The notes under the pieces were generated by a model. It saw only the letters and a list, made by a program, of their open reading frames with translations. It ran no database searches and was not told where the DNA came from. From positions 1 through 64,000 of the IMG/VR virus record IMGVR_UViG_3300046450_001953: a stretch of 64,000 bases of DNA, one strand, 5' to 3'. Made by a program: the position numbers and the translations under genes. This document shows positions 5,888 through 64,000 of the stretch, piece after piece. Position 1 is the first letter of the stretch. Each line of letters opens with the position of its first letter. This DNA is from a virus.

Positions 5888-5930
5888 AAAACACAATCTC
5901 CATAAATTTAAGTGTAATATAACCTTTTAT

Positions 5931-5940
5931 TATAAATATA
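5931..5940 (-). promoter_or_regulatory. TATATTTATA motif upstream of the dehydrogenase gene
   Basis: In minus-strand sense TATATTTATA lies 43 bases before the ATG at 5887. The same ten-mer, in sense orientation, precedes several other genes in the window (see findings). There is no convincing -35 box here. Confidence 0.3.
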
Positions 5941-5952
5941 ACAAAGGTGGGT

Positions 5953-12360: not shown

Positions 12361-13616
12361 TCCACGAATACCTTTGTAAATTTAAATTGGTCTCTGGGTG
12401 TAAACGTCTCTATTGTATGATGTATACCTTGGCCAATGGATTTACACATTTGTCTGGTTGTAAATTTATTAGTTTCCAAAAAATTGTCAGAATCACTCAT
12501 GTCAATGTCACCACAAGAAATCCGTGAATACATTTGGCCAATGGCCGCCGATATATCAATGGATGAGCATATATCCGAATATATATACGGAGTTTTCTGC
12601 GTACCAGATAATAAGCGAATCGTGGGTTCTATCTTTTCTGCCCATCGTTTATCATATTGGTCCTTTAACCCCCCTGTGTGTGATATTATTATAGGAGTTT
12701 TCGCAGCGACTGATTCAAGGGTTGCTAAACCAAACCCCTCGGCCGATGCAACATTTATAGTGCAATGTGCCAGGTTGTACATATTATTTAAAACGGACTC
12801 GGTGACCGTTTCACTTGATAGAAATACGGGTAAGTCGGGAAATAAATCATCAAGCAAGCAATTTATGTCGGGACCAGTCGGTGAGTCTGGGTTGGTGTGC
12901 AATAACAAAGCAACTCCTCCCTTATCACACTCGGATACGGAATTTTCGTAGAATACAGAAAACCCCTCAATTAAATTTGCAAGTTGTTTACGTGATGTGT
13001 TAGCATTATTACAGAACAAAACAAACTTATAGTCTTGACCAAGGAAATCTATTCTATTGTGTATTATTTGTTTATCGGGTTGTTGATGATATATTTTTGT
13101 ATTAACTCCGTGAGGTACAAGTGTGTAGTTTGTATGCTCTGGACATATTTTTTCAATACATTTTTTTGTAGTAATGCTTATACATCCAACCCAGTCGCAA
13201 CTATTGTATATTGATTTTAAAAACTTTGGATATGGGTCGTTGTCCCACACATGATAATATAATAATGGACAAACGGTTCTAACTTCATGTTCTATTTCAA
13301 ATAACCAACCATAACGATGTGGGTCCGTCATAATAACCACCGCGTCAGGTGATTCCATAAGCAATGTGCTTCTAAGTTGATCAGCTGAAGAATATCCGTT
13401 AGTTTCATGTAATCGGACCGATGAGTTGGTATGACCTGTAATTTTTGATACAGATTCGGATACATCTACTATACTTGGATTTGTTCGTGATTTCCCACAC
13501 GCAAGTTGCACGAAATCGAAGTCAGATACTAAATGAAGTATGATTTGTTTTAAGATGTTTGCCACACCGGTCGTGTGACGTATATCGTCCCCAATTAATA
13601 AAATCTTATTTTTCAA
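12357..13616 (-). CDS. Glycosyltransferase, GT4-like (GT-B fold)
   Basis: The 419-residue protein has the N-terminal Rossmann start KNKILLIGDDIRHTTGVANIL and the C-terminal SAEGFGLATLESVAAKTPII, the canonical GT4 E-x7-E region, followed by a glycine-rich loop (HTGGLKDQYD). The only usable start is TTG at 13616, because nearby ATG and GTG codons run into stops; the Shine-Dalgarno match is weak. A sigma70-like promoter lies upstream at 13623-13651. With the adjoining 392-residue transferase it forms a two-gene translationally coupled unit. Substrate is unknown. Confidence 0.8.
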   Translation of the reverse strand: MKNKILLIGDDIRHTTGVANILKQIILHLVSDFDFVQLACGKSRTNPSIVDVSESVSKITGHTNSSVRLHETNGYSSADQLRSTLLMESPDAVVIMTDPHRYGWLFEIEHEVRTVCPLLYYHVWDNDPYPKFLKSIYNSCDWVGCISITTKKCIEKICPEHTNYTLVPHGVNTKIYHQQPDKQIIHNRIDFLGQDYKFVLFCNNANTSRKQLANLIEGFSVFYENSVSECDKGGVALLLHTNPDSPTGPDINCLLDDLFPDLPVFLSSETVTESVLNNMYNLAHCTINVASAEGFGLATLESVAAKTPIIISHTGGLKDQYDKRWAEKIEPTIRLLSGTQKTPYIYSDICSSIDISAAIGQMYSRISCGDIDMSDSDNFLETNKFTTRQMCKSIGQGIHHTIETFTPRDQFKFTKVFVE

Positions 13617-42900: not shown

Positions 42901-45105
42901 GTCGTACCGGGGGTCGATTTTGATCATGATAGATATTGGGTAACCAACGACTCAAACTATTTTGTTGATATGAAAATCTCCATGCAAACCTCCACGAAAA
43001 AAGAAACCTACAAAACAACCAAAATCATACAGAAGCACTCCAAGACATACAAAACACCATTTGTTGAATTTTTCGAATCCAGAAGTTCTATTGAGTCTGG
43101 TGTAGATTTACCGACTGAGTGTTTTATTAAAAAATCATATGATATTGAAAAAGAATATCAACCGCATGATATATCTGCAATTGGAACTGGGGCGGATGTA
43201 TTGGAATTCGGCCGACAAACAAAACATACAAACAACGGATATACAAGAAATACTAAAATTTCCGTAAACGGAGAAGACACCACTGTTAGCCAGTCGGGGT
43301 ATTTGTGTAAGAAGCCTGCGATTGTCAGAACCCCAAAACCCCGTCAAAATAGTGGAGGCGTGGAGTTTGGTGACTCATTTTGGTTCAATCAGGATAAAGC
43401 ACATTCTATAATAGAAACCAACACAGACTTAATGTTTGAGAAACCTGAAAATGACCCAATCGTTTCTTTTACATTTGAGGAGTACAACTTGGTAGATGAG
43501 GTCACACTTGTGGTAGACCGACTTGCAGGAGAACATATAACAGGTGCGAATGGAGAGTACACGAAGACAGATAGATCATATAATAATAATAATGTGTTTG
43601 TGAAGGGTGGGGTGTGGTTTATTTACAAAGATACATCTTGTTGGATATTAACAAATTCACAGAGCTTTGTAGACCCCGACACACTAAGTGCTTCTGATAG
43701 TGCATGGACTACTACGAATTCCGAACGAATTGATAGTGATTTAAACGGAAATCACGGAAGCAGTTCAGAGTTTATAAATGAACGAGGTGTGGTAGATGTT
43801 GTGTGCAAAACATCAATAACCCCCACCCCCGATCCCGAACCAACCCCAACTCCCGAACCAACCCCAACTCCCGAACCAACTCCAACCTCATGGGAGTCAC
43901 CATCCACACCCGTCCCAGTGCTGACCCCAACCCCCTCAACTGACATCGGAGTGACACCGACACCAACACACACACCAACCCCAGAACCCGAAGAACCTAC
44001 AACTACACCAGGTCCGTTTTTATTTGAATTTGATAACTATGCAATAACACGTGAACGATATGATCTATCAAACGAGGATTCCACACAAGTCGAGGCAAAA
44101 ATTAAAGAAGATTTGTTTAATACCAACTATAATGTTGACTCAATTGCAACCGTAGAGGATTTACTTGAAGACGAATCACTTCTTGGAAAAATACCCGACG
44201 AGATAAAAACATTTAATATAAAAGTGGCAAACTATGTAAAGTTGGTAGGAGGTGATATCAAAGAGGGTTCGGTATCTAGTTATGCTTGGAACCCAGACGG
44301 AATATTGAAAAACGGTACACATAGATCATTTTATATGTCAAAAAGGCAAGGAGGTCGCCAACACACGTATGATAACCAATATCAGTTTGATGAGTATGGA
44401 TATTATATAAAAAGTTGGTTTGGTCCCCGCAACGTATTGGTTAAACTAAAAAACCAAATTGAACGAGTTAAATACCCAACTGCAAGTTCTGGACTGCACG
44501 ATGGAATTTTAATTAAATGGAAAGCATCTCCCAATGCAGATTATGTTAGACTAGAAAAGAAGGTCGGTGAGGAATGGGAAACAGTAGAAGATAAATTATC
44601 TCAAGTATACTCAGTTTCTGGATACATGGATACTTCCACATCCGAATCTCAGAGTGTGGAATATAGAATTATCGCAGTTGGTTCATCAAAAACCGAAGCA
44701 AACTCGGACTCATTTTTTGGATGGAAACTTGGAATGCCAACAAAACCTTCTCATATAAGTGCTTCTTATATGGACTTTTCTGATAAAATAAAAGTTGATT
44801 GGGATGTTTCTGGTATGACAAATACATTTAATAAGACAGCCGATTTTACAATATTGAGATCAGAGACAAATAATTTTGACGAGTATTCCAAGTTCACAAC
44901 AATTGCCACAGGGGTAACTAAAACTCCATACTATGATATGTTCACCGAGTCAGATTTCGATGATAGGGTATATTGGTATATGGTTGTTGCAAACAACGCA
45001 AAATCCAATAACCTGAGTTCAAGTGAATATGAGGAAAAAAGTAACTGGTCAGATTCCGTGTCGGGCCGTCTAATCGAAGGTTTTAATTTCAGTCAGGAGG
45101 AATAA
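33964..45105 (+). CDS. Giant baseplate/adhesion protein, 3713 residues
   Basis: This is one uninterrupted ORF. The N terminus (residues 1-560) is helical and wedge-like. Near residues 782-850 is a segment ([20 protein letters not shown] and [16 protein letters not shown]) that I associate with tail or baseplate proteins. A LamG-like domain (about 875-1245) is interrupted by one WKNF domain (972-1083). Five NGxY...W modules lie near 568-628, 1609-1666, 2394-2464, 2725-2781 and 3183-3239. A TP-rich linker (about 3285-3350) leads to a C-terminal unit with [18 protein letters not shown] and two FnIII-like domains (3500-3710). It is likely a T4 gp7-like baseplate component enlarged with binding modules. 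Exact role is inferred. Confidence 0.7.
36880..37212 (+). repeat. WKNF domain copy inside a LamG-like domain
   Basis: The copy reads [45 protein letters not shown] and [21 protein letters not shown]. It splits a LamG-like domain between its strands DQYIEVPL...[13 protein letters not shown] (before) and [17 protein letters not shown]...[16 protein letters not shown] (after). The domain is therefore a transferable module. Confidence 0.8.
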
Positions 45106-48174: not shown

Positions 48175-51100
48175 GTGATAAAGATATTAAAATTATCAAA
48201 TAAGTCTGTTAGAAGATTTACCACCAACAAAGAGTGGAAGTATAGTACACTAAGTTCTGATGACTCGTTGGTACTTGAACAGGGTGACGATATACCAATA
48301 TTCCTAGATTCGGAGACTCAACTTGCAACCGAACAAAACAAAGCCGACTTTAAACTGAACATAACGCACGGTAAAAATATAAAGGGAACTTTCTTTTCCA
48401 AGGATAGTAAGTATTTTGATGAGAAAACTGAACCACTGAATTACGACGGGTCATATCAGAGGGTAGTGTACAATTCTATGAAGCACCTGTTCTACAATGA
48501 ATATGGTCTAGCTGGAAATATAAAATATGATAAGTACTACAAAAACCCACTGAATGTATTTGGGGGAGAGTCGGGAAAATACACACCCCTCGATTTTAAA
48601 TCAGACATAATTGGTCAAGACGATGATGGTGAACGTCGAGTTCTTGGTGACGAGGTAACTGTGTTGGAAATACCCACCCATGTGTTTGGTGAGAAGATCA
48701 AACCCACTTCGTTTAAGATAACTGATTATAGTTCTCCGTATGATGCAATAGAGATAACCGATGACGGAAACACAAATTTGGTAGTTGGTTCTAAGACATT
48801 CAATGAAATATCCGAAGTAGGTTTAAATAAATTTATAATTGCGGATACCGAAACTTCCTCGGCCGACAAAAAGATCAACATAGATTACACAGACTTAACC
48901 TATGGATATGTCGTAGCCTCTTCTGATGATTACTTTATATCCGGAGCCCCTATTTTAACAGACTCTCCCTCGGAACTTCAATCCGGCCGTGCGTCTTTGC
49001 ATAAGTACGATAAATCAACAAAGAGGTTTGAACTCTTGCGTGAATTCTATTGTCCGTTTACTCAAAGTGGTATTGCCCACGAAACGGCGAACGATAATTG
49101 TCAGTTCATATTAACTGAACTTGGAAATATTGTAACTTCTGAAAATTCATTAATAAATGATAGCTTTGGAAAATCCGTTGAGTTGTGTGGGGATATATGT
49201 GCAGTTGGATCACCCAACTCTCATATAACAGGAAGAAACAGTGACCAAGCAACTGGTCATATTTTTGTGTATGATAAAAACAAAGGCGGGTCTGATAATT
49301 GGGGGATAGTAAATGTGTTTGAGGGTGATCCGTCTTCCGAGTTTGGTACATCAATTTCGGTTGATGGTGATTACATGGTGGTCGGAGCTCCTAATTTAAA
49401 CGATGGTAACGGTGGAGTATATGTTTTTAAGAAAACGAAAAGAACCAAATCCCACCCGTGGATTAAGACATCAACCATATATGAATCATATAAGTGGAAC
49501 GATGTCATCAAAAAATATGAAGGCCTACCAAAACAAGATGATGAAGACTACATCAAGTATCTGCGTAGACGTGATGTTATAGTTTCTAAAAAAATATTAA
49601 AAAATAGAGAACATTTACAAGAAAAGAAAGACTTGGGGGAAATAACCGAAGAAGAATACATTGACAATTTAACTACACCCGATGATTACAGTCAAGTGTT
49701 CCCGTTTAACTATTTGTACTCCCACGGGGATGATTGTTCTGAGGTTGCTGGCATTGAAAATATGTGGTACAAACATCGGTATTGGAATGCAAAAACACAC
49801 CCAAGTGTAAAGTGCAAGATTTCGGAGGATAACAACTATTATCAAAAAGCAGTATGGCCCGGATATATTGCAGACGAGAATGATGGCAGTTATATACCAA
49901 ACCCCGATCACGAACAAAATAAAGAAAATAAGTGGGCGTATCGTTGGAAAGTTCAAAATGTTTCTGGTGATAACACATCCCTTGGGTTATTTGAAGAGGA
50001 TGAATTTGATTGCAACGATGAGGGTGTGTCTATGTTTTCGGGTCCAACTGTGAATACATTTGGAGATGCGAATAAGTATCCTGTGAATGAATATACAGAA
50101 TCCCCAACAGGATCACTTGGAGATACTACATTTGATTTGATTGGAATGGTTCTCCCACCAACTAAATCAATACGTCGTTTTGGTGAGAATGTGAAATTGA
50201 GGGGGGATAATTTATATACATCAAATCCATCTACATCAACACCACGTTGTTATGCATATAGTAAACAAACTAACAAGTATGGGTGTGAGGTGTGGGAACT
50301 AACGCATACGTTATCCGATACAGGAATGATGGGTCATTCTACAAAAGAACCAACACTAACTCCATCTATCAATTCCGTGTCAATCAATTATTATGATTCT
50401 TATGTTGAAGTTGAGTTGTGTCCATCTATTGAGGATTATGCTACATGGGTATGGAAGTTGGACAGTGCATTGGTTGACGAACACAAAACAACTGGATCAA
50501 AAAAGATAGTTGGTGGTTCTCGGGTTGAGAAGTGTGACTCAATTTGCCCCCGTGATATAAATTATTTATTTCATGCAAGATATGATAAAATCAACAACAA
50601 AGACGCAGGCCAGATTCCTTCAAATTACGGAACATCAACGGATTTAAAATTTGAGTTTTTCCCATCCTACATCAAGGTTGATACACTTAATGTAGATTAT
50701 GCCCACACCACCGACATGGGTGAAGTAAAAGTAATGTTTACAGTTGAATTATCAGAAACCAAGTCGTGGAAATATCAAATATCGGGCAATCCAATTATAC
50801 ATAATATGCTCGTCCAAAACGAAGGAGCAGTTACATCAGCTGAGTTTATCACATCACCTGGTGAATATACACTCACGGTATGGGCAATTGATTCCCCTGC
50901 ACCACCCACATCGAATTATTCTAGGGATAAACGATTTTTTCGGATACATGAACCAACTGCAACCCCAACCCCAACACACGCACAGACCCCAACCCCCATA
51001 CCAACAACCTCCACACCAGAACCAATCATAGTTGATCTCACACACCGAATCTCCGGTAGAGACCGATACATTCGGGACCACGACGATTGGGTTGACAGAT

Positions 51101-54100
51101 CACCGAAGACATCACCTAAGTTTTTCAGCAAAGCAAGACTTTCAAACTCATTCTATAAGATAGATTCAATCGGTTCTCCAACTTCAACCCCTGATACTAA
51201 CACAACCCCAACACCAGTCCCTGCGACAAACATCAGTCCAATTGGTTTGTCATGGAAAAACTTTAGAGAAAATATTTCATTTGTATACCCCAATGTCAAA
51301 GCAGGAACCAAACCTTCGTTTATGACAATATACTCGAATGCAGGAAAGACAAACGTTGGAAAATATGATCCGATACACACTGTTGCAGAAATCGGAGCAC
51401 AAGAAACATTAAACGGAGAATTGGTTCGTTTAATTTTCAACGTCGGCCAAGGTGAATCTGAGTTCTATTATGAGTTTTTGTTTATGGGTTCTGTTGAAGG
51501 AACACACTTCACTTTAAACGAACTCACAAATAAACTTGATTATCAATATACCTTACCTGCCAATTTAGGTAACCACATATCAATTTCATCCGCATCTTTT
51601 AGTGACACATTTCTTGATAATAAATCTAACGCCAAGTTCTTCAGTAAAGGTGAGACTGGATTGTCTTATGTAGATTCAAGTGCTGATGATAATACAATTG
51701 CATTGTCTTGGAAAAACTTCCGAGAGAATGTTTCGTTTTCGTATCCAAGTGTCAAAGCAGGAACAAAACCTTCGTTTATGACAATATATTCAAACGAAGC
51801 AAAAAACTCTGATGGTAGTTACAACCCAATTCACACTTTGGCTGAAGTCGGAGCTCAAGAGACATTAAATGGAAAGAAAGTTAGACTCACATTCAACACC
51901 GGATCTATCGGTGGTGATGAGTTTTACTATGAGTTTTTGTTTAGAGGTTCTGTTGAAGGGACTCACTTCACTTTAAATGAACTTAGGGATAAGTTTGATT
52001 ATGAATGCACACTTCCACCAAACCAAGGACATATCAAGTCTATTGCAGATGAGCAGTTTGATGACTTTTTATCGGCCCACGCAGCTGCAAAATTCTTTAG
52101 TAAAGGTGAAAATGAACTATCTTATGTAGAACCACACACAGACGATGATACACTTGGATTGTCGTGGAAAAACTTTAGGGAAAATGTTTCGTTTTCATAC
52201 CCAGCAGTAAAGGCCGGAACAAAACCCTCCTTTATGACCATCTATTCAAATGAAGCACGACAAGAAGACGGGGGTTATGATCCAATTTATACACTCGCAG
52301 AGATTGGTGCACAAGAAACTCTCAATGGAGAGACGGTTAGACTTACGTTTAATACAGGGTTTGTGGGTGGTGATGAGTTTTACTATGAGTTTATATTTAA
52401 AGGAACTCCAACGGGTACTCATTATACTTTAAGTGAGTTGAGAGATGTTGTAGACGATATGCCGGAACTTCCTGCGAACCTGGGAGTAATACGAAAGATA
52501 AGAGACTTTAGAACGAAAGATATTTTTAAGAAGTGCAGACAACCCAAGTTCTATTCCAAGGGTGAAAATGAATTGTCGTATGTGGATCCCTGGTCAACCA
52601 CCGGAACAATTGCGTTGTCTTGGAAAAACTTTCGGGAAAACATATCCTTTTCCTACCCACCTGTAAAGGCAGGAACCGAACCTTCCTTCATGGCAATTTA
52701 CTCAAATGAAGCAAAGCAAGATGATGGCAGTTATGACCCACTTTATATGCTTGCCGAGATAGGGGCTCAAGAAACACTCAATGGACAAACCGTAAAATTA
52801 ATCATAAACGCAGATAATTGCGAGGCCGACAAGACTAAATATTATGAGTTTATGTTCCGCGGATCGCATGAAGGCACTCACTATACTTTAAATGAACTTG
52901 TCACAGAACTTGACTACGACTGCACACTACCACCGAACATAGGAACTTACGTATCTATCGATGAATTCTCCGATGAGAATGCAAAGTTTTTTAGTAAAGG
53001 TGTGAATGCGTTGTCTTATGTAGAACCCTGGTCAGCTGCCGATACAATTGCATTGTCTTGGAAAAACTTCCGAGAGAATGTTTCGTTTTCGTATCCAAGT
53101 GTCAAAGCAGGAACAAAACCTTCGTTTATGACAATATATTCAAACGAAGCAAAAAACTCTGATGGTAGTTATGATTCTATGCACACACTTGCTGAAGTCG
53201 GAGCTCAAGAAACTCTCAATGGAGAGACCGTTAGACTTACTCTTAATACGGGGTCTGCTGGGGGTGCTGAAGTTTATTATGAGTTCATGTATATTGGTTC
53301 AATTGAAGGCACTCATTTTATATTGAATGAGTTAAAGGATAAGTTTGAGTATGACTGCACACTTCCACCAAACTTTGGAAGTTATGTTTCATCCGATGAT
53401 AAAAAATTCTTTAGTAAGGGTGTGGGAGGAATACCATATATAGAACCTTGGTCACCAACTGGTACTATGGCGGTGTCTTGGAAGAACTTCCAAGAGAATG
53501 TTTCATTCTCGTACCCAGCAGTCGACACCGGAACGGTAACAACGACCATGAGCATTTATTCTAACGATGCAAAGCAACCTACCGGCGGATATTCCCAATT
53601 AAAGATACTTGCTGAAATAGGTGCACAAGAAACTCTAAATGGAGAGAAGGTTAGACTTACTCTTAATACTGGGTCTGTTGGAGGTGATGAGTTTTACTAT
53701 GAGTTTATATTCAAGGGTTCTGAACTTGGTACACATTTTACATTAAACGAACTCAAAGATAAGTTTGAGTATGAGTGTACACTTCCACCAAACCTTGGTG
53801 GGTATGTAGAGTTGGGTGGTCTTGATTTTGAAGATTTCTTACTGAACAGGAGTGAGGCAAAGTTTTTTACAAAGACCCCGTACCAAGACTCGTATTCAGA
53901 ATCAACTCTTTCTGACGATACCATATCCTTGTCTTGGAAAAACTTCCGAGAGAATGTTTCGTTTTCGTATCCAATTGTCAAAGCTGGAACAAAACCTTCG
54001 TTTATGACGATCTATTCAAATGGAGCAAAATTAAAAGACGGTAGTTACGATCCACTTTATACCCTTGCAGAAATAGGCGCACAAGAAACCCTCAATGGTC

Positions 54101-57100
54101 AAAAGGTTAGACTTACTCTTAATACGGGGTCTGTGGGGGATGACGAATTTTATTATGAGTTTACGTTTGACGGAGATGTGGACGGAACACACTATACATT
54201 AAATGAACTTATCGACAGAGATGATGAACACTTTCAATTGAATCGTGGGACTCATTTGGAGAAGATCTATATCGATGCACTGAAACCCAATAAATCATCT
54301 CATATTCAAAAGCAGAGGATTGAGTTTGTTACAGAGCAATATGCTGAAAAACTAACAAGAGAATATACCGAGCAACTTATTGGAGTAAAGTCGTTTGGAT
54401 GCCTTCCGGCAAACAAAGGTACCCCGACAAAAAACAACATGTCCCGAGTACCTGATGATATGCTTCAAAGTGGAGCAGATGCCCAATGGTATTCACGGAA
54501 CGAAGACCTGTGGTATAAAGAAAATTCAAATCTTCAAAACGAGATTGAAATTAGTTGGAACAATGTTAGAGAAAATGTATCGTTTCACTACCCAACAAAG
54601 GTCGCGGGTGAAACCCCGATCACGATGAAAATTTATGCACCGAATCACAGACTGAAGCAAGCATTGCCTGCTTCTGGCCGAGACTCACAAGTACATATAC
54701 CAGACTATATACTCGCAGAGATAACTGCAACTGAAACCCTAAACGGAGAGGTTGTACGACTAACTTTTAATACTGGGATGGACACTGAGTTTTTCTACGA
54801 ATTCCTTTTTGACGGAACATCAGAAGGAACACAATATACACTCGATGAATTATCATGGAAACCATCCCCACGACTTAAAACACCGTTATTAATAAGGTCT
54901 CCTGAATTTGAACATTGTAAGATTAGAATTGATAAGGAATCTATTGGTTCTGGGTTTCATGTGTTACACTTGGCACTTGTGGATGCTAATAACATACCCA
55001 TTGACGATGAATCCACACTTGGATTTTTTAATAACCCCACATTGTATGACACGCAACCCAGACAGATGTTAGTTAACAAGACATTTAGGTATGGGGATAT
55101 AAAGTCGGAATTCGGAACTGCACTCGATGCTTCGGATGAGTATTTAATAATTGGAAACCCATCCGACAGAGAATACTCACCACTAAGTGACCAAAGAAAG
55201 GAATATGAAGCTGGTGCGGTTTTTGTATTTAGGTTGAGTTCAAGTGGTGGGATCGATTTTTTCAAAAAGGTATACGGAGAATCAGACTCTGAGGTATATT
55301 TTAATTTCAGATTTGGGTGTGATGTGTCCTTACTCGGAGACAACTTTTTAGTTGGAGGATATGCAGATGAGTATTCGGACATAAGTATAGTAGAGTCAGG
55401 TTCCGAAAAGAAAGTGGAGATAGAGGATTTTATCTTTGGTGCATCAAAATTTACAGATGACTCATATGCAACAACTGAAGTACTTATTACAAACTATCAA
55501 CACGACTTGAATTCAGAATTCGGTGATGTGGTCATTAAAATTGATATAGGTTCACTTGATATTGATAGAACTAAACTATCTGATATTGAAGTCCGAGCAG
55601 ATTTCATCGACACCGGCCGTGACACTATCCGAATAGAGGAAGTCCGTGGCCACGGTACAGATGGTATAAATGGTGTGTATGTGAAAATGAAGAACCCCAT
55701 TAATGTTAAAGATGGGTGTGATATAGAAGGTAGTGAGAGCAGCCGTGTTTATATGAGTAAGAACGGTTGGTCGATTTATTGGGAAGACATACGGGACACA
55801 TGGGTATTGACAGACACACCAAACACTTCGCATGAGTATCAAGAAACATTTGCGTGGAAAGATTACCACCGGGCATTTGACCTTTCTGTTGGTCTTGATG
55901 AGTTTGATATACTATCAACGGAGAATCTGTCTAAATTGTTTGAACTATATGAGGTTACGGACTCCACCCAAACCAACACATGGAAATCTCGAATACAGAA
56001 CGTATATCCAGAAAATAAACTTCTTTACATTGATTTGATTATTGAACTTGAATCAATTGGTACATTGGATATCACAGAAGATGTGGTAAAGAAGTTATTT
56101 AGTTTATATAGACTCCACTCGGTCAAGAGAATCGGTTCTGATATAGAGGCCCGGTGGTTGGGGTCTATGGAAACGACCAAGAGCATCTTACCAATAATAA
56201 ATGAACTAAACGCAGTTAATTCAATTTATGTGAATTTTGAGTTGCTAAAAAGAACTATTTTCGAATTATATAAGATTTCCGATGGTGATGTGATGATATC
56301 ATGGGCCAAGAGACTTGGGTATAATTACACATTGACTGATGTATTATCCGAAGTCAGACCCACGTACTATGACAAAATAAATAAACGGAACTTAAATATA
56401 TTATTCAAAATACATGGTGTACCCGTTGGGGAGTTCCGTGATAAATGGGAATCTCGTATAAATCTTGGGTTTTTATTGTGTGACGTATATAGTGAAATAA
56501 CTAATCGTAATACCATCAATTTCTCGATGTCATCCCAATCATCGTCGATGGATATGCCAACCAAATTCACACATGGGTTCGGTAGTTTGGAAAACTTAAA
56601 CATAAAGGTTACTTCTAACAACGACACCACCGGCCAGAACGGTTCACTTGCATGGGGAATATACCGAGACGAAACAAGAATAGTGGGCTCGCAGATTCAT
56701 ATATATGTTAATATGTTGGATAGTATAGACTTTCCAGATTCAATCATATTTGTCTATAATTCTATTAAGAATGCGGTTAATGGATACGCATATTATTATA
56801 GTATACATGAGGGTGAATGTAATCGTGTAAAAAGACTAAAAACGAACAAAGGAAAATATACGTGTAAAAAGCAATATGGTCACTCGGTTTCGTTGAGTAA
56901 GGATTTCCTATATATAGGTTCACCCATTCTTGGTAATTTTAATATAGATAACTTGGTGACATTTGGTTTCTCCCCGATTGTGTCGTTCGGAACTTCGGAT
57001 AAAATGTTTCTTGAATACGATGAAATTCATCCAAAATATATAAATGATTTGAATAAAAACGTAGTTGGTTCTGTTATATCATATGACCACTCTGCACTAC

Positions 57101-58002
57101 GAGATGATAAAAAATATTTTCTTGGGAATGTTTTTTACAAAAATGGAATTATATCACTTACTGATACTGATGGTTATTTCTCTAACATATTAACTAACAG
57201 TGGTTCGTCTGGGTTTGAATTGGAGTTTAAGTCAACTCAAACTTTATATGAAAATGAAATAGTGTGTAAAGTAGACCCACATGAATTCAATTTTAGTACA
57301 AACCCAACTTCATTGGTGGGTGGAAGCATTGAGTTTGATGTAAACGAAGATGGCAAATTTGACATCGCTGACGTGACTTATATATTCAAGTATATCATGG
57401 GAGGGTTGACGATTAGTGATGTGGACCAGCAACTCATAGATGAAGAAAACAAGTCAATCGCTGTAAGTGCCACATCTCGCAACTGGCCAACCGAAGACAT
57501 AGTTCTAACAGAATCCGAGGATGTTTTGTTAATGGATTTGTTTATGAACTCCGATTTGAATACGAATGGGCCCAACTATAATAGAATTGTTGCGAAACTA
57601 AAGAAAATGTATTCCGCAGGCGAATTTGATATAGATGGAGATGGTGTAACGTCGACAGCTGACGCAAAACTCTTAATGAGATATTTTATAGGAAGAACGG
57701 GTCTCCAACTTACCCGCGGGTTAGTAGATGGTTATGGGGATGCCACCCGATACAAATCAGCTGATATTATCGAGTATTTAAACGAGAAGACTGGAAAAAA
57801 CATAGGAAGACGCATACTGTCTGATTTTAGGGACTATGATGAAAACGACAAGAAAGACTCCCTTGGAAGTTATCTAGCACCGTATGCGACCACTGTGGGG
57901 TTGTATAGTGGTCTTGAGTTGGTTATGGTTGCTAAACTAGGCAAACCAATTAAGATACTTCCCAACTACCCTATAAACTTTTTGATAAAATTTGATAGTT
58001 AA
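48175..58002 (+). CDS. Giant modular virion protein, 3275 residues
   Basis: GTG start (an ATG at 48170 is closed by a stop). The head (residues 1-230) includes GDEVTVLEIPTHVFGEKIKP. FG-GAP-like propeller strands lie near 243-420 (FGKSVELCGDICAVGSPN, FGTSISVDGDYMVVGAPN), 2306-2402 and 2896-2926. A TP-rich linker (about 926-952) is followed by eight WKNF domains (1023-2228). An NGxY...W module lies near 2491-2552. Four helical repeats span 2583-2780. Two dockerin-like loops, DVNEDGKFDIAD (about 3055) and DIDGDGVTSTAD (about 3152), precede a C terminus shared with the previous gene's product. It is probably an adhesin or fibre. No catalytic motif is seen. Confidence 0.7.
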   Translation: MIKILKLSNKSVRRFTTNKEWKYSTLSSDDSLVLEQGDDIPIFLDSETQLATEQNKADFKLNITHGKNIKGTFFSKDSKYFDEKTEPLNYDGSYQRVVYNSMKHLFYNEYGLAGNIKYDKYYKNPLNVFGGESGKYTPLDFKSDIIGQDDDGERRVLGDEVTVLEIPTHVFGEKIKPTSFKITDYSSPYDAIEITDDGNTNLVVGSKTFNEISEVGLNKFIIADTETSSADKKINIDYTDLTYGYVVASSDDYFISGAPILTDSPSELQSGRASLHKYDKSTKRFELLREFYCPFTQSGIAHETANDNCQFILTELGNIVTSENSLINDSFGKSVELCGDICAVGSPNSHITGRNSDQATGHIFVYDKNKGGSDNWGIVNVFEGDPSSEFGTSISVDGDYMVVGAPNLNDGNGGVYVFKKTKRTKSHPWIKTSTIYESYKWNDVIKKYEGLPKQDDEDYIKYLRRRDVIVSKKILKNREHLQEKKDLGEITEEEYIDNLTTPDDYSQVFPFNYLYSHGDDCSEVAGIENMWYKHRYWNAKTHPSVKCKISEDNNYYQKAVWPGYIADENDGSYIPNPDHEQNKENKWAYRWKVQNVSGDNTSLGLFEEDEFDCNDEGVSMFSGPTVNTFGDANKYPVNEYTESPTGSLGDTTFDLIGMVLPPTKSIRRFGENVKLRGDNLYTSNPSTSTPRCYAYSKQTNKYGCEVWELTHTLSDTGMMGHSTKEPTLTPSINSVSINYYDSYVEVELCPSIEDYATWVWKLDSALVDEHKTTGSKKIVGGSRVEKCDSICPRDINYLFHARYDKINNKDAGQIPSNYGTSTDLKFEFFPSYIKVDTLNVDYAHTTDMGEVKVMFTVELSETKSWKYQISGNPIIHNMLVQNEGAVTSAEFITSPGEYTLTVWAIDSPAPPTSNYSRDKRFFRIHEPTATPTPTHAQTPTPIPTTSTPEPIIVDLTHRISGRDRYIRDHDDWVDRSPKTSPKFFSKARLSNSFYKIDSIGSPTSTPDTNTTPTPVPATNISPIGLSWKNFRENISFVYPNVKAGTKPSFMTIYSNAGKTNVGKYDPIHTVAEIGAQETLNGELVRLIFNVGQGESEFYYEFLFMGSVEGTHFTLNELTNKLDYQYTLPANLGNHISISSASFSDTFLDNKSNAKFFSKGETGLSYVDSSADDNTIALSWKNFRENVSFSYPSVKAGTKPSFMTIYSNEAKNSDGSYNPIHTLAEVGAQETLNGKKVRLTFNTGSIGGDEFYYEFLFRGSVEGTHFTLNELRDKFDYECTLPPNQGHIKSIADEQFDDFLSAHAAAKFFSKGENELSYVEPHTDDDTLGLSWKNFRENVSFSYPAVKAGTKPSFMTIYSNEARQEDGGYDPIYTLAEIGAQETLNGETVRLTFNTGFVGGDEFYYEFIFKGTPTGTHYTLSELRDVVDDMPELPANLGVIRKIRDFRTKDIFKKCRQPKFYSKGENELSYVDPWSTTGTIALSWKNFRENISFSYPPVKAGTEPSFMAIYSNEAKQDDGSYDPLYMLAEIGAQETLNGQTVKLIINADNCEADKTKYYEFMFRGSHEGTHYTLNELVTELDYDCTLPPNIGTYVSIDEFSDENAKFFSKGVNALSYVEPWSAADTIALSWKNFRENVSFSYPSVKAGTKPSFMTIYSNEAKNSDGSYDSMHTLAEVGAQETLNGETVRLTLNTGSAGGAEVYYEFMYIGSIEGTHFILNELKDKFEYDCTLPPNFGSYVSSDDKKFFSKGVGGIPYIEPWSPTGTMAVSWKNFQENVSFSYPAVDTGTVTTTMSIYSNDAKQPTGGYSQLKILAEIGAQETLNGEKVRLTLNTGSVGGDEFYYEFIFKGSELGTHFTLNELKDKFEYECTLPPNLGGYVELGGLDFEDFLLNRSEAKFFTKTPYQDSYSESTLSDDTISLSWKNFRENVSFSYPIVKAGTKPSFMTIYSNGAKLKDGSYDPLYTLAEIGAQETLNGQKVRLTLNTGSVGDDEFYYEFTFDGDVDGTHYTLNELIDRDDEHFQLNRGTHLEKIYIDALKPNKSSHIQKQRIEFVTEQYAEKLTREYTEQLIGVKSFGCLPANKGTPTKNNMSRVPDDMLQSGADAQWYSRNEDLWYKENSNLQNEIEISWNNVRENVSFHYPTKVAGETPITMKIYAPNHRLKQALPASGRDSQVHIPDYILAEITATETLNGEVVRLTFNTGMDTEFFYEFLFDGTSEGTQYTLDELSWKPSPRLKTPLLIRSPEFEHCKIRIDKESIGSGFHVLHLALVDANNIPIDDESTLGFFNNPTLYDTQPRQMLVNKTFRYGDIKSEFGTALDASDEYLIIGNPSDREYSPLSDQRKEYEAGAVFVFRLSSSGGIDFFKKVYGESDSEVYFNFRFGCDVSLLGDNFLVGGYADEYSDISIVESGSEKKVEIEDFIFGASKFTDDSYATTEVLITNYQHDLNSEFGDVVIKIDIGSLDIDRTKLSDIEVRADFIDTGRDTIRIEEVRGHGTDGINGVYVKMKNPINVKDGCDIEGSESSRVYMSKNGWSIYWEDIRDTWVLTDTPNTSHEYQETFAWKDYHRAFDLSVGLDEFDILSTENLSKLFELYEVTDSTQTNTWKSRIQNVYPENKLLYIDLIIELESIGTLDITEDVVKKLFSLYRLHSVKRIGSDIEARWLGSMETTKSILPIINELNAVNSIYVNFELLKRTIFELYKISDGDVMISWAKRLGYNYTLTDVLSEVRPTYYDKINKRNLNILFKIHGVPVGEFRDKWESRINLGFLLCDVYSEITNRNTINFSMSSQSSSMDMPTKFTHGFGSLENLNIKVTSNNDTTGQNGSLAWGIYRDETRIVGSQIHIYVNMLDSIDFPDSIIFVYNSIKNAVNGYAYYYSIHEGECNRVKRLKTNKGKYTCKKQYGHSVSLSKDFLYIGSPILGNFNIDNLVTFGFSPIVSFGTSDKMFLEYDEIHPKYINDLNKNVVGSVISYDHSALRDDKKYFLGNVFYKNGIISLTDTDGYFSNILTNSGSSGFELEFKSTQTLYENEIVCKVDPHEFNFSTNPTSLVGGSIEFDVNEDGKFDIADVTYIFKYIMGGLTISDVDQQLIDEENKSIAVSATSRNWPTEDIVLTESEDVLLMDLFMNSDLNTNGPNYNRIVAKLKKMYSAGEFDIDGDGVTSTADAKLLMRYFIGRTGLQLTRGLVDGYGDATRYKSADIIEYLNEKTGKNIGRRILSDFRDYDENDKKDSLGSYLAPYATTVGLYSGLELVMVAKLGKPIKILPNYPINFLIKFDS
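51241..54858 (+). repeat. Array of eight WKNF domains
   Basis: Copies begin near 51241, 51697, 52153, 52609, 53047, 53467, 53923 and 54544, each about 300 bases with spacers of about 120-320 bases. Every copy keeps SWxNxxENxSFxYP, an xMxIYxxxA stretch, a TLNG turn and GTxxxLxEL. A lead-in KFFSKGExxLSYV precedes most. Copy 6 (MAVSWKNFQENVSF) and copy 8 (ISWNNVRENVSF) are the most diverged. Copies 2 and 5 share 130 identical bases. Confidence 0.9.
57337..57696 (+). other. Dockerin-like double calcium-loop region
   Basis: Two EF-hand-like loops are encoded: DVNEDGKFDIAD followed by VTYIFKYIMGG, and DIDGDGVTSTAD followed by AKLLMRYFIGR. Positions 1, 3, 5 and 12 are acidic or Asn in both, and each is followed by the hydrophobic helix of type I dockerins. 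The two loops are about 97 residues apart, more than in classic dockerins. Confidence 0.7.
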
Positions 58003-58714: not shown

Positions 58715-59236
58715 ATGCAAAAAAAATCATATTCCTTGGGACTTGATATAAGTTCAACGGTTGTTGGGTATTGTGTATCAACATCTAAGAAAAATATAAC
58801 TGAAGCAGGTTATATCGATATCCACAAAGAACCCACTATTAGGGACAAAGCACATAAAGTTGCCCAGACTCTGGAGAACTTGGATGGAGTTCCTGATATA
58901 ATAATCATTGAAGAAAGTTTAAGTGGTTTTGGTGGAGGACGAACGAGTCAGCAGACTATTGTAAAACTCGCAAAGTGCAACGCAGTAGTAAGTTATGTAG
59001 TTGAAGCAATTTATGAGTGTGATATTGAACACGTAAATGTATCCACTCTCAGAAAGGCCGTTTTCGGCAAAAGTCGTGAGAAGGATGTTGATAGCAAGCA
59101 GTTCGTACGTGAACAACTTGAGAATATGCTTGATTTATCTGAGTTTGTTGTCTATAATAGTAGAAAAAATTATGATAAAAAGAACTATGATATGTTGGAC
59201 GCGACCGTAGCATCTCTTTATCACTGGTATAAATAA
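58715..59236 (+). CDS. RuvC-like Holliday junction resolvase
   Basis: The 173-residue protein has the RNase H-fold layout of RuvC: LGLDISSTVVGYCV (first Asp), DIIIIEESLSGFGGGR (Glu after the fourth strand) and YDMLDATVASLYHWYK (C-terminal Asp). Length matches RuvC. It cleaves four-way junctions during phage recombination and packaging, in the role of T4 gp49. It lies upstream of the primase gene, with a five-base gap, in the replication block. Confidence 0.82.
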   Translation: MQKKSYSLGLDISSTVVGYCVSTSKKNITEAGYIDIHKEPTIRDKAHKVAQTLENLDGVPDIIIIEESLSGFGGGRTSQQTIVKLAKCNAVVSYVVEAIYECDIEHVNVSTLRKAVFGKSREKDVDSKQFVREQLENMLDLSEFVVYNSRKNYDKKNYDMLDATVASLYHWYK

Positions 59237-59240: not shown

Positions 59241-60167
59241 ATGGGGATTTCCGAGCAGAAGTTGCTCACACTATTACAAAAAGTTCTAGGTGAGGGCAAA
59301 ATGGTTTCAAAAGATGAGGCAATGTTTGTGTGTCCGTTTTCCCACCACAGAAAACCCAAGTTGGCAGTAAATCTAACCACACAATATTGGCAAAGTTGGA
59401 TTGATACGAATGCCAAGGGAAGAAGCATCTATACGTTGTTTAAGAGGTTACAGGTTCCAAGCAATTATTTTGCGGAACTTTCCAAGATTGTAAAACTTCC
59501 CAAGAGCATGAAGTTGGCAGATACTGAAAAACAATACGTATCATTGCCTTATGAGTTTAAAAGATTAACCGAAACACATAAAGATTTTTCTTACACAAAG
59601 GCAATGAACTATTTGAAAAATCGTGGCATTAAGTCATATGACATTGAACGTTACGACATTGGATATTGTTCGGGTGGAGATTATGGTGGCAGAATTATTG
59701 TTCCGTCATTTGATGTGGATAACAAATTAAACTATTTTTTAGCAAGAGATTTTACTGGTTCCGCATATCTAAAATACAAAAACCCACCCGTTAGTAAGGA
59801 TGTTGTTGTATTTGAGAATCAAGTAGACTTCTCCGAACCACTTATTTTCTGCGAAGGAGTATTTGATGCAATTGCCATTCGCAGAAATGCGATTGCGTTG
59901 TTGGGAAAGAACATCCCAAGTAAATTAAAAATGCGACTGATAGAACATGGAGTAAAAGAAGTCAGTATTGTATTAGACAACGATGCCTATAAGAATGCAT
60001 TGGCCATGTCCGAGTCGTTGATGAACGACAACATCCAAGTTAGATTGATTAAAATGGGAAAAGAAGATGCCGCGGACTTGGGATTTAATAAGATTATTCA
60101 CAGACTCAAACATACAAATCTACTTGATTTTGGTGAATTAATGAAACAAAAATTATGCATGAACTAA
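59241..60167 (+). CDS. gp61: DNA primase, gp61/DnaG-like
   Basis: The 308-residue protein has an N-terminal zinc-finger-like segment (FVCPFSHHRKPKLAVN; Cys, His, His) and a C-terminal TOPRIM domain: LIFCEGVFDAIAIRR with the catalytic Glu near residue 208, then VSIVLDNDAYKNAL with the DxD. The middle, YDIGYCSGGDYGGRIIVPSFD, matches the DnaG core. It makes RNA primers on single-stranded DNA with a gp41-type helicase, which lies outside the window. Its stop overlaps the SbcD N-half gene by 13 bases. Confidence 0.88.
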   Translation: MGISEQKLLTLLQKVLGEGKMVSKDEAMFVCPFSHHRKPKLAVNLTTQYWQSWIDTNAKGRSIYTLFKRLQVPSNYFAELSKIVKLPKSMKLADTEKQYVSLPYEFKRLTETHKDFSYTKAMNYLKNRGIKSYDIERYDIGYCSGGDYGGRIIVPSFDVDNKLNYFLARDFTGSAYLKYKNPPVSKDVVVFENQVDFSEPLIFCEGVFDAIAIRRNAIALLGKNIPSKLKMRLIEHGVKEVSIVLDNDAYKNALAMSESLMNDNIQVRLIKMGKEDAADLGFNKIIHRLKHTNLLDFGELMKQKLCMN

Positions 60168-60859
60168 AATCTGATCTGAAGAATGTTGAGAAAGTATATC
60201 ATTTAGCAGACATTCACATAAGAAACGTAAAACGACACACCGAGTATGTAGGTGTATTTGAAAACTTTTACAACCAAGTAAAACAGGACAACTATGACAA
60301 CGCATTGATTTTCATTGGTGGGGATATTGCTCATGCCAAGACGGAAATGAGTCCTGAGTTAATTAAGCAAATTTCTTCATTTTTACGGGAGTGCTCCAAA
60401 TTACATCCAACAATCGTCATTGCGGGAAATCACGATTGTAATCTAAATAACCCAGACCGATTGGATGTTATATCTCCAATTATGGATATGATGGATGACG
60501 ATGATTTGTTCTATCTGAAGGATAGTGGGGTGTATAAAATCGGAGATGTTGCGTTTGGGGTATTTGGTATATTTGATGATCCGGCAGAATATGTCAACGG
60601 TCAAGATATTGACGATCCTGAGATCACAACAAAGATTGCAGTTTATCATGGTGCAGTAAAGAGAAGCATGACGGACATAGGATATGTCGTGATGGGTGGT
60701 GACATAGAATTGCCTATGTTCAGTGGATATGACATTGTTATGCTTGGGGACATCCACAAATATCAAGAATTACAAGAATACCAAACTGAACATAGATTCA
60801 TTTCAGAGAATGCGGTAGACGAGTATAAACTTGAAGGGTGGTATGTGGCAGATGAGTAG
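60155..60859 (+). CDS. SbcD/Mre11 (gp47-like) nuclease, N-terminal half of a split gene
   Basis: The 234-residue protein holds all calcineurin-like phosphoesterase motifs: LADIHIRN, FIGGDIAHAK, IAGNHDCN, AVYHGAV and MLGDIHKYQ. Full gp47/SbcD proteins are about 340-400 residues. Similarity stops after QELQEYQ (about 60783), followed by 20-odd unrelated residues and a stop. The missing C-terminal part, from VVVYSGSMIQQNHGE onward, is encoded from 61771, after a glycosyltransferase gene. All visible metal-binding motifs are in this half, so it could be a nuclease if it pairs with the C-half. It overlaps the primase gene and the GT9-like gene. Confidence 0.8.
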   Translation: MHELKSDLKNVEKVYHLADIHIRNVKRHTEYVGVFENFYNQVKQDNYDNALIFIGGDIAHAKTEMSPELIKQISSFLRECSKLHPTIVIAGNHDCNLNNPDRLDVISPIMDMMDDDDLFYLKDSGVYKIGDVAFGVFGIFDDPAEYVNGQDIDDPEITTKIAVYHGAVKRSMTDIGYVVMGGDIELPMFSGYDIVMLGDIHKYQELQEYQTEHRFISENAVDEYKLEGWYVADE

Positions 60860-61781
60860 AGTTTTAATTAGATGTAGGAATATTGAAATAGGAGATATTC
60901 TATTTGCAAGTAGTATTGCCAAAAAACTTAAGGAAGAAAATCCAGAATACTCAGTTGATTTTGATTTGAATTACTTGCAACCGATTGAACTACTTCAGAA
61001 TAATCCTTATATTGATAACGTTTATTACAAGGAGAGTGTTGGGCCATATGATGAAACATTTGAACTTACGGATGACCCCCGTACACTAGACCCATACAAA
61101 TCAGCAGTATCTCAGTTTCAACAAATGTGTAATATAAAAGATCCCGACGATACATTTGAAATTTTCACAAACACATCAGAAGACTATGCCATCGGCCGAA
61201 GCATGGGGGAGTTGATCAACATAGGTGAATGGCAACCTAACTTTATTAAAGTCTGTTATGTCATGGATTGGGAACGAAAGAGTTATTTGCTTTCTGAGGA
61301 AGAAGATGAACTCGCACCCGGATCTCCAACAGGAACTGGATCCGGAAGAAGTCCCCGGAAGTTAGATGATATATTGAAACCTTTATATAAACCAAATATC
61401 ATGTTGTTTGCAATTGGGATTGAATCCAAACTTTCCAAAGCATTCCCTAGTATAAATTCGTCAAGCAAGTTTTCATTCACCGCAAGTTTGATAAAAAACT
61501 CCAACTATGTCATAGGTCCTGAGGGATGTTTAACAAATATGTCGTCTGCACTCGGAGTTCCGACAATCATAACCACGGACTACATTCATCAGCTGATCAC
61601 CTCCAAAGGCTTGGAGTGGCCACAAGATGAAGCAGCTAATTTAAATAATTTAAAATGCAGGCCTCCGTTTCTGGGGCCCTGTCAATATTTCCCAAAAGCA
61701 AATCATGTTCATTTGAATCCTTTTTTAAGTGATACCAAGGTGGGTGAGAAAATTTTAGAAATTGTAACAGATGGAAGATAA
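60852..61781 (+). CDS. GT9/heptosyltransferase-like protein inserted in the sbcD/sbcC locus
   Basis: From the ATG at 60852 the product has 309 residues, starting MSRVLIRCRNIEIGDILFAS. Then LQNNPYIDNVYYKES and the late NSNYVIGPEGCLTNMSSALGVPTI follow the pattern of GT9 heptosyltransferases, which have GD...P near the start and a '...DSG..HLAAALG.P' loop, here altered to GPEGCLTNMSSALG. An acidic, Ser/Gly-rich loop lies near residues 145-175. Earlier in-frame starts (TTG 60831, ATG 60843) are possible but add residues before the Rossmann strand. It overlaps the SbcD N-half by eight bases and the downstream fusion by 11 bases, so all three are coupled. It may be a sugar transferase of the cassette type moved here. 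Confidence 0.7.
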   Translation: MSRVLIRCRNIEIGDILFASSIAKKLKEENPEYSVDFDLNYLQPIELLQNNPYIDNVYYKESVGPYDETFELTDDPRTLDPYKSAVSQFQQMCNIKDPDDTFEIFTNTSEDYAIGRSMGELINIGEWQPNFIKVCYVMDWERKSYLLSEEEDELAPGSPTGTGSGRSPRKLDDILKPLYKPNIMLFAIGIESKLSKAFPSINSSSKFSFTASLIKNSNYVIGPEGCLTNMSSALGVPTIITTDYIHQLITSKGLEWPQDEAANLNNLKCRPPFLGPCQYFPKANHVHLNPFLSDTKVGEKILEIVTDGR

Positions 61782-64000
61782 AACTACATATATAAAAGTT
61801 AAACGGCACAACGCAAACAAACCGGTTGTGGTCTATTCGGGAAGCATGATTCAACAGAATCATGGAGAAAAACCACATGGTCATGGATATGTGTTGTGGG
61901 ATTTACCTAAACGGAAACATACCCATCACGAAGTTCATAATGAATATGGATATTATACAATAGAAGTTAGAGATGGTGAATGTGTAAGTGACTTGACCCA
62001 ACTACCAAACAAAGCTAGATTGCGTGTTAAAGTCTATAACACAACGGCCACGGAAACCAAAGAGATTATCGCCGACATCCGCAAGAGAACAAGTATAAGT
62101 GACTTGAATGTTACACGATGCGATGCAATCTCCGAGGCAAAGAAGTATGATCGTGAGAATAAGTTTGATTTCGGTGATATATCCTTACTGCAGGTTCAAA
62201 ACGATTTGATAGAAGATTACCTCCGCAGAAACTTCGTGGTGGATGACGATCAAGTTAAAACTGCACTTGATATAAACAAAGAAGTAAATGGCAAGTTGAT
62301 TGTAAAGGAAGTCATTAGAAATTGTATATGGAAACCAAAGAAATTTGAATTTGGAAATATGTTTAGCTATGGACCTGACAATGTAGTTGATTTTACCAAT
62401 ATGAAAAGTGTCCTCGGTTTGTTTGCATCAAATGCTAGTGGTAAGAGTAGTGTGATGAGTGCGTTGAGTTTTTGCCTGTTTGACAAATGTGATAGAGCAT
62501 TCAAGGCCTCTCATGTACTCAATACATTAACTGATTCCTTTTATTGTAAACTTAATTTTGAGATTTCTGGGGTAAATTACTTTATAGATAGAACTGCATC
62601 CACTAAAAAGAATGGTGATGTAACAGTGACCGTTGATTTTTGGAAAATCGATAGTGAAGGAGACCGAGTTTCTTTAAACGGAGAGCAACGTTCGGGCACG
62701 AATGCGATGATCCGTGATCATGTTGGTTCATATGATGACTTTGTGCTTACTACATTAAGTTTACAAAACAACAATGCAATTTTCATAGATAAAAGTCAAA
62801 GTGAACGAAAAGATCTATTGGCTCAGTTTATGGGGATTGATACATTTGATCAATTACACACTACCGCATCGGAGGACATTAAAGAAATTAACGCACTGTT
62901 GAAAAGATTTAATCGTGAAGACTTCGATCAGACTCTGGACGCAATTCAGACAAAACTAGAGGAAGTAAACAACAACTACTCCACGCAGGACAATAAGACA
63001 AACATAGCACTATCTCAACAACAGAAGTTAAATAAACAACTTGCGGATACAAATTCTCAATTTAAGAACTGCACATTTGACGAGTCTTCGGTTGATATAG
63101 ATAAACTGGAGTTCAATAAGAAGAATTTGAAAGAACGACACGTGGTAGCAAATAATAACAGGGACGATGAATCTGATAGAAAGAAAAACCTCGCAACCAA
63201 ACGGAAAAAAAACTCAGTTGAACTTGTTGAACTTGCTGGGGTTGAAGAGAAGTATGTTAATGTGCTTAGAATTCGTGAGGATATAACGTTGGTTGAAAAG
63301 GATTTGGCAGTTTTGCGAACCTCTGTTAATGCAAAACTTGATAAACTGAAGCACTACGATAGTCACGAATATGACCCCAACTGTAAATTTTGCGTAAACA
63401 ACTCAAAGAACCTTATCGCGAGTGCAGCTCAAACGAAGGAGGAGTTGGACAAGGATAAAGCAGCTGCCGATGAGTTAGTAACTCAGAAAATCGCACTTTC
63501 CAAAACACTTGATGAATATAAAGATGTCGAATCCGACTATGGAAAGATGGGTGAGTTAAAAACAGAAACAACCCAACTTACTTATGCAGTTAATGAAGCA
63601 GATTCAAAAGTTCTTGCACTATCTTCTATGATAGAATCTCTTGAAAAGGATGTAGTTATCAACGACAAGAGCATCAAAGAATATTACGAATGTAAGGATA
63701 TTATTCTATTCAACAAGGAGTTGCAGATTCAAGTAGACGAACTTGAGGTAAACTTGTTAAAAGTAAACGGAACGGCAAATACAGAAACTGAAAAATTACA
63801 AACCTTGTTCGGTGAAGTTAAAATTATTGAAAAAGAACACGAAGACATCGTCGCATCAATAGAAGAAGCCAAGACATACGAAAGAAAAAAACGTGGTTAC
63901 GAGTTATATCTTGATGCAGTAAAACGAGATGGTATTTCATATGAACTTATATCCAAGACAATTCCAAGCATTGAAAGTGAAGTTAATAATATTCTTTCTC
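61771..64000 (+). CDS. SbcD C-terminal domain fused to SbcC/Rad50 (gp47C-gp46), partial
   Basis: The frame is open from ATG 61771 to the window end (743 codons). It starts with 16-odd unassigned residues, then VVVYSGSMIQQNHGEKPHGHGYVLWDL, the segment that normally follows the GDIH motif in SbcD, and a capping-like domain to about residue 185. It then reads directly into SbcC: FGNMFSYGPDNVVDF, Walker A ASNASGKSS near residue 220 (first Gly replaced by Ala), the Q-loop region LSLQNNNAIF, long coiled coils and the zinc hook CKFC (63382-63393). Mre11/Rad50 fusions are known in some viruses, but here the Mre11 half is broken. The C-terminal ATPase lobe lies outside the window. Confidence 0.85.
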   Translation, partial: MEDKTTYIKVKRHNANKPVVVYSGSMIQQNHGEKPHGHGYVLWDLPKRKHTHHEVHNEYGYYTIEVRDGECVSDLTQLPNKARLRVKVYNTTATETKEIIADIRKRTSISDLNVTRCDAISEAKKYDRENKFDFGDISLLQVQNDLIEDYLRRNFVVDDDQVKTALDINKEVNGKLIVKEVIRNCIWKPKKFEFGNMFSYGPDNVVDFTNMKSVLGLFASNASGKSSVMSALSFCLFDKCDRAFKASHVLNTLTDSFYCKLNFEISGVNYFIDRTASTKKNGDVTVTVDFWKIDSEGDRVSLNGEQRSGTNAMIRDHVGSYDDFVLTTLSLQNNNAIFIDKSQSERKDLLAQFMGIDTFDQLHTTASEDIKEINALLKRFNREDFDQTLDAIQTKLEEVNNNYSTQDNKTNIALSQQQKLNKQLADTNSQFKNCTFDESSVDIDKLEFNKKNLKERHVVANNNRDDESDRKKNLATKRKKNSVELVELAGVEEKYVNVLRIREDITLVEKDLAVLRTSVNAKLDKLKHYDSHEYDPNCKFCVNNSKNLIASAAQTKEELDKDKAAADELVTQKIALSKTLDEYKDVESDYGKMGELKTETTQLTYAVNEADSKVLALSSMIESLEKDVVINDKSIKEYYECKDIILFNKELQIQVDELEVNLLKVNGTANTETEKLQTLFGEVKIIEKEHEDIVASIEEAKTYERKKRGYELYLDAVKRDGISYELISKTIPSIESEVNNILS

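Follow-up and report, generated by a model that had tools for sequence, protein, structure and literature searches.

The 64,000-nucleotide stretch analysed here (the window) comprises positions 1-64,000 of the 67,413-bp IMG/VR record IMGVR_UViG_3300046450_001953, and close to its end lies a gene for a fused Mre11/Rad50 (SbcD-SbcC) protein that is divided within its nuclease part, with a gene of glycosyltransferase (GT) fold in the break. Three overlapping open reading frames (ORFs) follow one another on the plus strand. The upstream half (N; 60155..60859, 234 aa) encodes the SbcD/Mre11 phosphoesterase core and ends in a C-terminal tail, QEYQTEHRFISENAVDEYKLEGWYVADE (60770..60856). The gene in the break (G; 60852..61781, 309 aa) has its best start, on our reading of the ORF, at the ATG at 60852. 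The downstream half (C) opens with a short leader carrying a new start, MEDKTTYIKVKRHNANKP (61771..61824), which was delimited by sequence comparison and lies 5' of VVYSGS. It continues with the 3' part of SbcD, i.e. the last core strands (VVYSGSMIQQNHGE) and a capping-like region (61825..62316), and then with the Rad50/SbcC part, which runs from 62317 to 64000 and on to 64371 in the parent contig, where C is complete (61771-64371, 866 aa). N and G overlap by 8 bp and G and C by 11 bp; an earlier annotation of this DNA (the original prediction) had given the same ORF coordinates and overlaps of 8-11 bases, and re-reading the ORFs returned the same values.

Profile searches place N in the SbcD family (phrog_100, 1.5e-13; Pfam Metallophos, 1.1e-7), and all five phosphoesterase motifs are found in it (ADIH, GGDIAH, GNHD, YHGA and GDIHK), the invariant positions of the clade alignment being D19/H21, GD 56-57, GNHD 91-94, H165 and GDIHK 198-202. 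C matches the SbcC family (phrog_77, 3.5e-28), and the 866-aa ORF carries a Walker A motif (NASGKSS), a CxxC zinc hook (DPNCKFC), the ABC signature region (CSGMERF) and a Walker B motif (FLVIDEG). The original prediction, in which N has every SbcD motif and then stops while C resumes exactly at the next conserved SbcD segment and runs on into SbcC with Walker A and CxxC, is thus borne out as to motifs, resumption and continuation. It needs correcting at the two edges of the break, since N does not simply stop there and instead carries a conserved 29-residue tail past the break, and the resumption in C is preceded by the short new leader. A model of the nuclease part of a fused homologue (L228) matches the Mre11/SbcD structures 3tho, 3qg5 and 6s6v (E 1.6e-12 to 3.8e-11). 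In the window this fold is spread over two chains, the final core strands lying in C and none of them in N.

The unbroken form of the gene is common among relatives. We collected 106 distinct fused Mre11/Rad50 proteins, and in more distant relatives, including Microcystis phage Mel-JY01, the fusion is a single ORF of about 1040-1070 aa. In nearly all of the 106 the loop from GDIH to the YxGS strand is 11-18 residues long, and it is in this loop of variable length, between motif V and the last core strands, that the break sits (in Thermotoga maritima SbcD the equivalent junction falls between GHIHSFREIQ and IYPGS). No conserved part has been lost, as the original prediction of a clean break had it. 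The fused relatives lack the N-half tail, except for a partial scar in L228. Besides the GT clade, i.e. the window and its relatives with the same arrangement, three further split lineages are represented by L002, L248 and L110, and in a tree of the core made without the loop the four are scattered among fused forms, with four changes; L248 is close to the fused L233, and the split forms occupy shallow, nested positions. In approximately unbiased (AU) tests, a single clade of GT, L002 and L248 was rejected (p 1.9e-63), as was one of the GT clade and L002 alone (p 0.015). L233 itself has what looks like a second endonuclease-like insertion (8153-9119), at the 3' end of its fused gene: a 268-aa ORF with a zinc motif is read in the same frame as a copy of the Rad50 C-terminus that has been displaced (it shares 53% identity with residues 1008-1073 of L228), and the main Mre11/Rad50 ORF carries a substituted C-terminus.

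Comparison of these sequences thus supports the split as the derived state: with more than 100 unbroken relatives and split copies nested inside them, it is the fused gene that was divided within its nuclease part, as originally proposed. None of the relatives carries the N-half as a complete, independent gene. One may consider the opposite direction, in which the split is ancestral and fusions arose later many times, given that T4-type phages have gp47 and gp46 as separate genes and that change counts on the tree cannot distinguish gain from loss. The T4-type separation, however, falls between the two proteins and not within the nuclease, and the shallow, nested position of the split forms, with L248 near the fused L233, makes this scenario scarcely credible.

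That the window and nearly all its relatives are metagenomic contigs would speak for an assembly artefact at the join. A scan with C recovered 36 close viral contigs (66-88% identity), all of which, when they reach far enough, keep the N-G-C order, and in total this order was seen in 37 further contigs besides the window, a recurrence far above chance, from many assemblies, diverged yet collinear. This already refutes an artefact, the chance of which is practically nil. Across the clade N is always 234 aa long, N and G always overlap by 8 bp, and G and C overlap by 8-14 bp. We refer to the clade as marine, a label that we assume from the accompanying aquatic metagenomes and from their accession numbers rather than from sample records.

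Strong purifying selection acts on each of the three genes: in close pairs omega is 0.02-0.07 (N), 0.05-0.17 (G) and 0.03-0.09 (C), values well under 1 that rule out a decaying gene. The tail of N (omega 0.065) is as constrained as the nuclease core (codons 1-202, omega 0.063); for the C leader omega is 0.25. Such selection on both halves, tail included, is as expected if they function jointly. Alternatively, the halves might no longer form one nuclease, with N acting alone as a phosphoesterase and C, a Rad50-like protein, having a role of its own; each half does have its own start and stop. Nevertheless, C retains the last SbcD strands that complete the nuclease core, N is without them, and an independent Rad50 would not need them. 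In addition, the genes are kept as one overlapping string in 37 contigs, and L228 resembles a return to the fused state, all of which makes separate roles improbable.

The nature of G was approached through its structure. An AlphaFold2 model (predicted local distance difference test, pLDDT, 78.6; predicted template-modelling score, pTM, 0.81) has a GT-B fold whose nearest PDB structures are of family GT9 (3tov, 1.8e-10; 1psw, 1.6e-9; WaaC, 8.6e-8), with WaaF also among the best, although template-modelling scores are only about 0.5. The sequence has no significant match among Pfam and PHROG profiles, GT families included, and a single match in PDB, again to the GT9 protein 3tov (E 0.15). The "GT9-like" gene of the original prediction therefore stands as regards fold and not as a profile-based family assignment: the model indicates a GT9-fold protein, GT9 membership not being proven by profile, and G is presumably active as a glycosyltransferase. 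A scan of viral contigs for the G family gave 37 loci, every one flanked by N and C, and in eight long contigs (78-170 kb) G is single-copy. The phage collection, the remainder of the viral contigs and a set of bacterial and archaeal genomes with one genome per species yielded no relatives of G. Two other glycosyltransferase genes occur in the window at 11182-13616 on the minus strand (phrog_2170, 4.9e-18 and 4.3e-16). They may be part of a sugar cluster that lies apart from the split gene, and are consistent with a sugar-modifying lifestyle.

G is also the part of the locus that has been exchanged. When two members of the clade, L029 and L015, are compared, identity is 91-97% in N, falls to 58-71% over most of G (apart from one 100-base block at 87%) and returns to 92-94% from the start of C; the corresponding synonymous divergence (dS) is 0.26, 1.73 and 0.78 for N, G and C. 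Similarly, L030, L037 and L039 form an outlying group in both N and C, whereas their G groups with that of L006, L009 and L036 (78-80% identity). This grouping is rejected on N (AU p 0.006), i.e. the N and G trees conflict. Sequence comparison thus shows swapping of G alone between viruses of the GT clade.

Other genes have occupied the same position. In L002 (LR756508.1, a 484-kb phage, for whose N-half no relatives were found in IMG/VR), N ends in SEYEVEEMVVEEDELEKYLNSGWKLDENLDDY, followed by an endonuclease ORF and then C. This ORF (5040-5957) encodes a zinc-finger protein of 305 aa whose PD-(D/E)XK domain is TnsA-like (PF08722, 5.8e-6; phrog_1271, 3.5e-15). L248 belongs to a family made up otherwise of fused forms with a short loop (GDIHKPNQYLDEAKTIAYPGS), and is itself split: N ends in TLQEYSYEELEIDEIDLDRYLKEGWECM, and between it and C there is a 335-bp stretch with no start codon, a truncated remnant of a Vsr/EDxHD-like homing endonuclease (phrog_559, 2.4e-13; phrog_9084, annotated as homing endonuclease, 2.1e-9). 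In L110, a 265-kb viral contig, the Mre11 part ends at GDIHKYQEF without any tail, and a small, unrelated coiled-coil ORF of 102 aa (6667-6989) precedes the Rad50 part; this split at the same site is probably an independent event. L002 thus has an endonuclease within a gene that its relatives carry unbroken, with no intron, the arrangement known as genes in pieces, and L248 has it as a remnant. The window's own insert is no endonuclease and has a GT9 fold, making the locus a variant of genes in pieces created by homing endonuclease genes (HEGs) rather than a member of that class. Elsewhere in L002, an ORF at 9291-10589 ends, by eye, in a Hint/intein-like domain (GCFPPHSEVLV...FFVEGILFHN).

Phage replication genes are often interrupted by introns and inteins, and the transcript of the ICP1 terminase, which adjoins a homing endonuclease, is spliced (PMC10448857). 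One may thus ask whether the insert is, or is part of, a self-splicing intron or an intein, so that a continuous Mre11/Rad50 would still be made. No group I or group II intron or intein was recognised, the insert being an independent ORF that overlaps its neighbours. Rfam gave no match at E<=1 in the five loci searched (L001, L002, L003, L030 and L110; L248 was outside this set), the overlaps of G with N and C leave no non-coding room for an intron, and the tail that N has beyond the break shows conservation at the protein level (omega 0.065), unlike intron sequence. An intein is contradicted by the GT fold of G and by its independent start. We consider splicing of either kind very improbable.

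A further common trait connects three of the split lineages. The upstream halves of the GT clade, L002 and L248, far apart in the core tree and with a single origin rejected, end in homologous tails of 25-30 residues that align without gaps. In shuffling tests, 0 of 10,000 shuffles reached the observed score for L248/L002. With the LQEY that the tails share removed, 0-42 of 10,000 reached the local score for GT/L002 and GT/L248, and 0-1 of 10,000 the anchored score. The similarity of the C leader is significant only for L248-L002 and L248-L228. Two other readings of the tail were dropped. From extensions of tblastn matches, it had been considered a remaining copy of the YSGS..GYVLWD segment that N lacks, an idea abandoned because the tail aligns in register with those of L002 and L248. 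That its Y..GW motif is a known endonuclease motif is not claimed either: there is no Pfam match, PHROG matches are weak and only to families of unknown function, and the motif does not occur in loci with L002-like endonucleases.

L228, a fused member of the L248 family, has a loop of 34 residues, QTLQEYSCEELVVNESKLTTKKIKHIKPAIKYSGS, compared with the usual 11-18, and this long-loop fused allele occurs in three assemblies (L232 and L236 are near-identical to L228). By its sequence the loop is an apparent in-frame scar of tail plus leader. In the model of the L228 nuclease part (pLDDT 83, pTM 0.82, with an Mre11 fold) it forms a beta-hairpin with strands 208-216 and 219-228, and the tip of this hairpin (SK, 217-218) is the position where the split alleles are divided. 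On this model, the N tail and the C leader may pair as an L228-type hairpin between two chains.

As a whole, the locus is, in our judgement, probably best explained as a genes-in-pieces slot made by endonucleases, taken over by a glycosyltransferase, with the enzyme reassembled in trans. The Mre11/Rad50 fusion of large tailed phages would have an insertion slot, the variable loop just past motif V, which homing endonucleases presumably entered in several lineages, creating an allele in which the upstream half gained a short tail and a stop, followed by the inserted gene and a downstream half restarting at its own ATG. The tail, a strand plus the Y..GW motif, would have travelled with the allele, whose original mobility would have been by homing. 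In the marine clade, a GT9-type glycosyltransferase would then have replaced the endonuclease and become a fixed resident, its alleles passing from one virus to another through recombination in the conserved flanking sequences. The 8-14 bp overlaps probably couple the translation of the three genes. Clade-wide, Shine-Dalgarno-like sites precede N in 0 of 35 cases, G in 5 of 36 and C in 1 of 36, no excess over a background of 10% (in window coordinates, 60137-60155, 60834-60852 and 61753-61771 were checked), which suggests coupled or leader-independent initiation. The halves may reassemble into one nuclease-ATPase, the N tail and C leader re-forming the hairpin that is continuous in fused relatives.

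Several observations weigh against this explanation. An endonuclease and the glycosyltransferase were never found together in the slot of one virus, so the replacement step is without an intermediate. L002 and L248 are one assembly each, with endonucleases of different families. Tail homology is based on about 25 residues, and homology of the GT-clade leader to those of L002 and L248 is not significant. The modelling covers the fused homologue only, where confidence in the hairpin is moderate (pLDDT about 71-78), and the G grouping of L030, L037 and L039 with L006, L009 and L036 is not rejected by the C tree alone (p 0.205). A rival reading is direct insertion of the glycosyltransferase gene by illegitimate recombination, with no part for endonucleases in this clade and with convergent tails. 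The gene is found only in this slot and never next to an endonuclease, and the tail-less split of L110 by a small unrelated ORF indicates that the site tolerates other insertions. Nonetheless, the in-register similarity of the GT tail to those of L002 and L248 beats nearly all shuffles, and endonucleases sit in the same slot in two other lineages, which leaves direct insertion as rather unlikely, though to be reckoned with. Returning to the endonuclease-made slot, a more far-reaching version of it, which we offer tentatively, is that the allele is a mobile gene-splitting unit with its own adaptor tail, which closes the upstream half, pairs with the restarted downstream half and keeps the interrupted enzyme working regardless of the gene in between, while the passenger (a PD-(D/E)XK or Vsr-like endonuclease, or the glycosyltransferase) is exchangeable, the latter spreading on conserved flanks without a nuclease.

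As to the surroundings, a DnaG-type primase gene (59241..60167, plus strand) lies upstream of N and overlaps it by 13 bp; the primase is a conserved neighbour in the relatives L003, L228 and L248 as well. A gene for a RuvC-like resolvase (58715..59236, plus strand; phrog_159, 6.1e-12) belongs to the same replication/recombination block. Farther upstream there are two giant ORFs, 33964-45105 (3713 aa) and 48175-58002 (3275 aa), the latter with several SWKNFRENVSFSYP repeats and, close to the C-terminus, dockerin-like DVNEDGKFDIADVTYIFKYIMGG segments.

When a homing endonuclease splits an essential phage gene, it is usually regarded as a selfish insertion tolerated by the host enzyme. Here the slot seems to outlast the endonuclease and now houses an ordinary, conserved, recombining enzyme gene; given that this slot holds selfish genes for DNA cutting in relatives, an essential gene has seemingly been turned into a docking site with an exchangeable passenger. 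If so, phages can make a parasite's insertion point a stable, exchangeable locus shielded by an essential gene. In addition, the locus is a natural case of an Mre11 nuclease core in two chains, in which one can ask how split enzymes reassemble, and it comes with a matched natural series for comparison: fused with a short loop, fused with a scar loop, split by an endonuclease and split by a glycosyltransferase.

Genes in pieces are known, and what appears to be new is the non-nuclease resident, the split Mre11 and the recurrent occupancy; searches of the accessible literature on such splits and fusions, leaving subscription papers aside, brought to light no split Mre11/SbcD and no non-nuclease resident of this type. 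SbcD-SbcC single polypeptides such as Mimivirus R555, with phage or plasmid homologues and abundant in aquatic viruses (PMC3175470), represent the unbroken form of the window's gene, and the available text of that paper describes fusions with no mention of a split. In HEG-islands, as outlined in PMC10448857, endonucleases replace one another beside essential phage genes, with allele exchange, whereas the window's exchanged unit is a lone glycosyltransferase gene within the split gene, with no endonuclease left. The T4 topoisomerase gene, split by mobA, and gene 43A/43B, split in Aeromonas phages 25 and 44RR, are likewise replication enzymes that, by the account in PMC2988022, work as separate polypeptides. 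The break in 44RR gene 43 holds non-nuclease sequence, a likeness to the window, while, as far as that account goes, none of these breaks houses a gene for a metabolic or surface-modifying enzyme. The closest parallel is Aeromonas phage Aeh1, whose nrdA-a/nrdA-b are split by mobE with function kept (Friedrich et al. 2007, as cited in PMC2988022 and PMC3653736): there too an essential phage gene is interrupted within a functional region by an insertion without an intron, and the two polypeptides are reported to make up the active enzyme. In contrast to nrdA, where the resident is a homing endonuclease, here all 38 contigs have a glycosyltransferase as the fixed resident, Mre11/Rad50 is the protein that hosts it, and the slot was filled on at least three occasions, with a tail in common.

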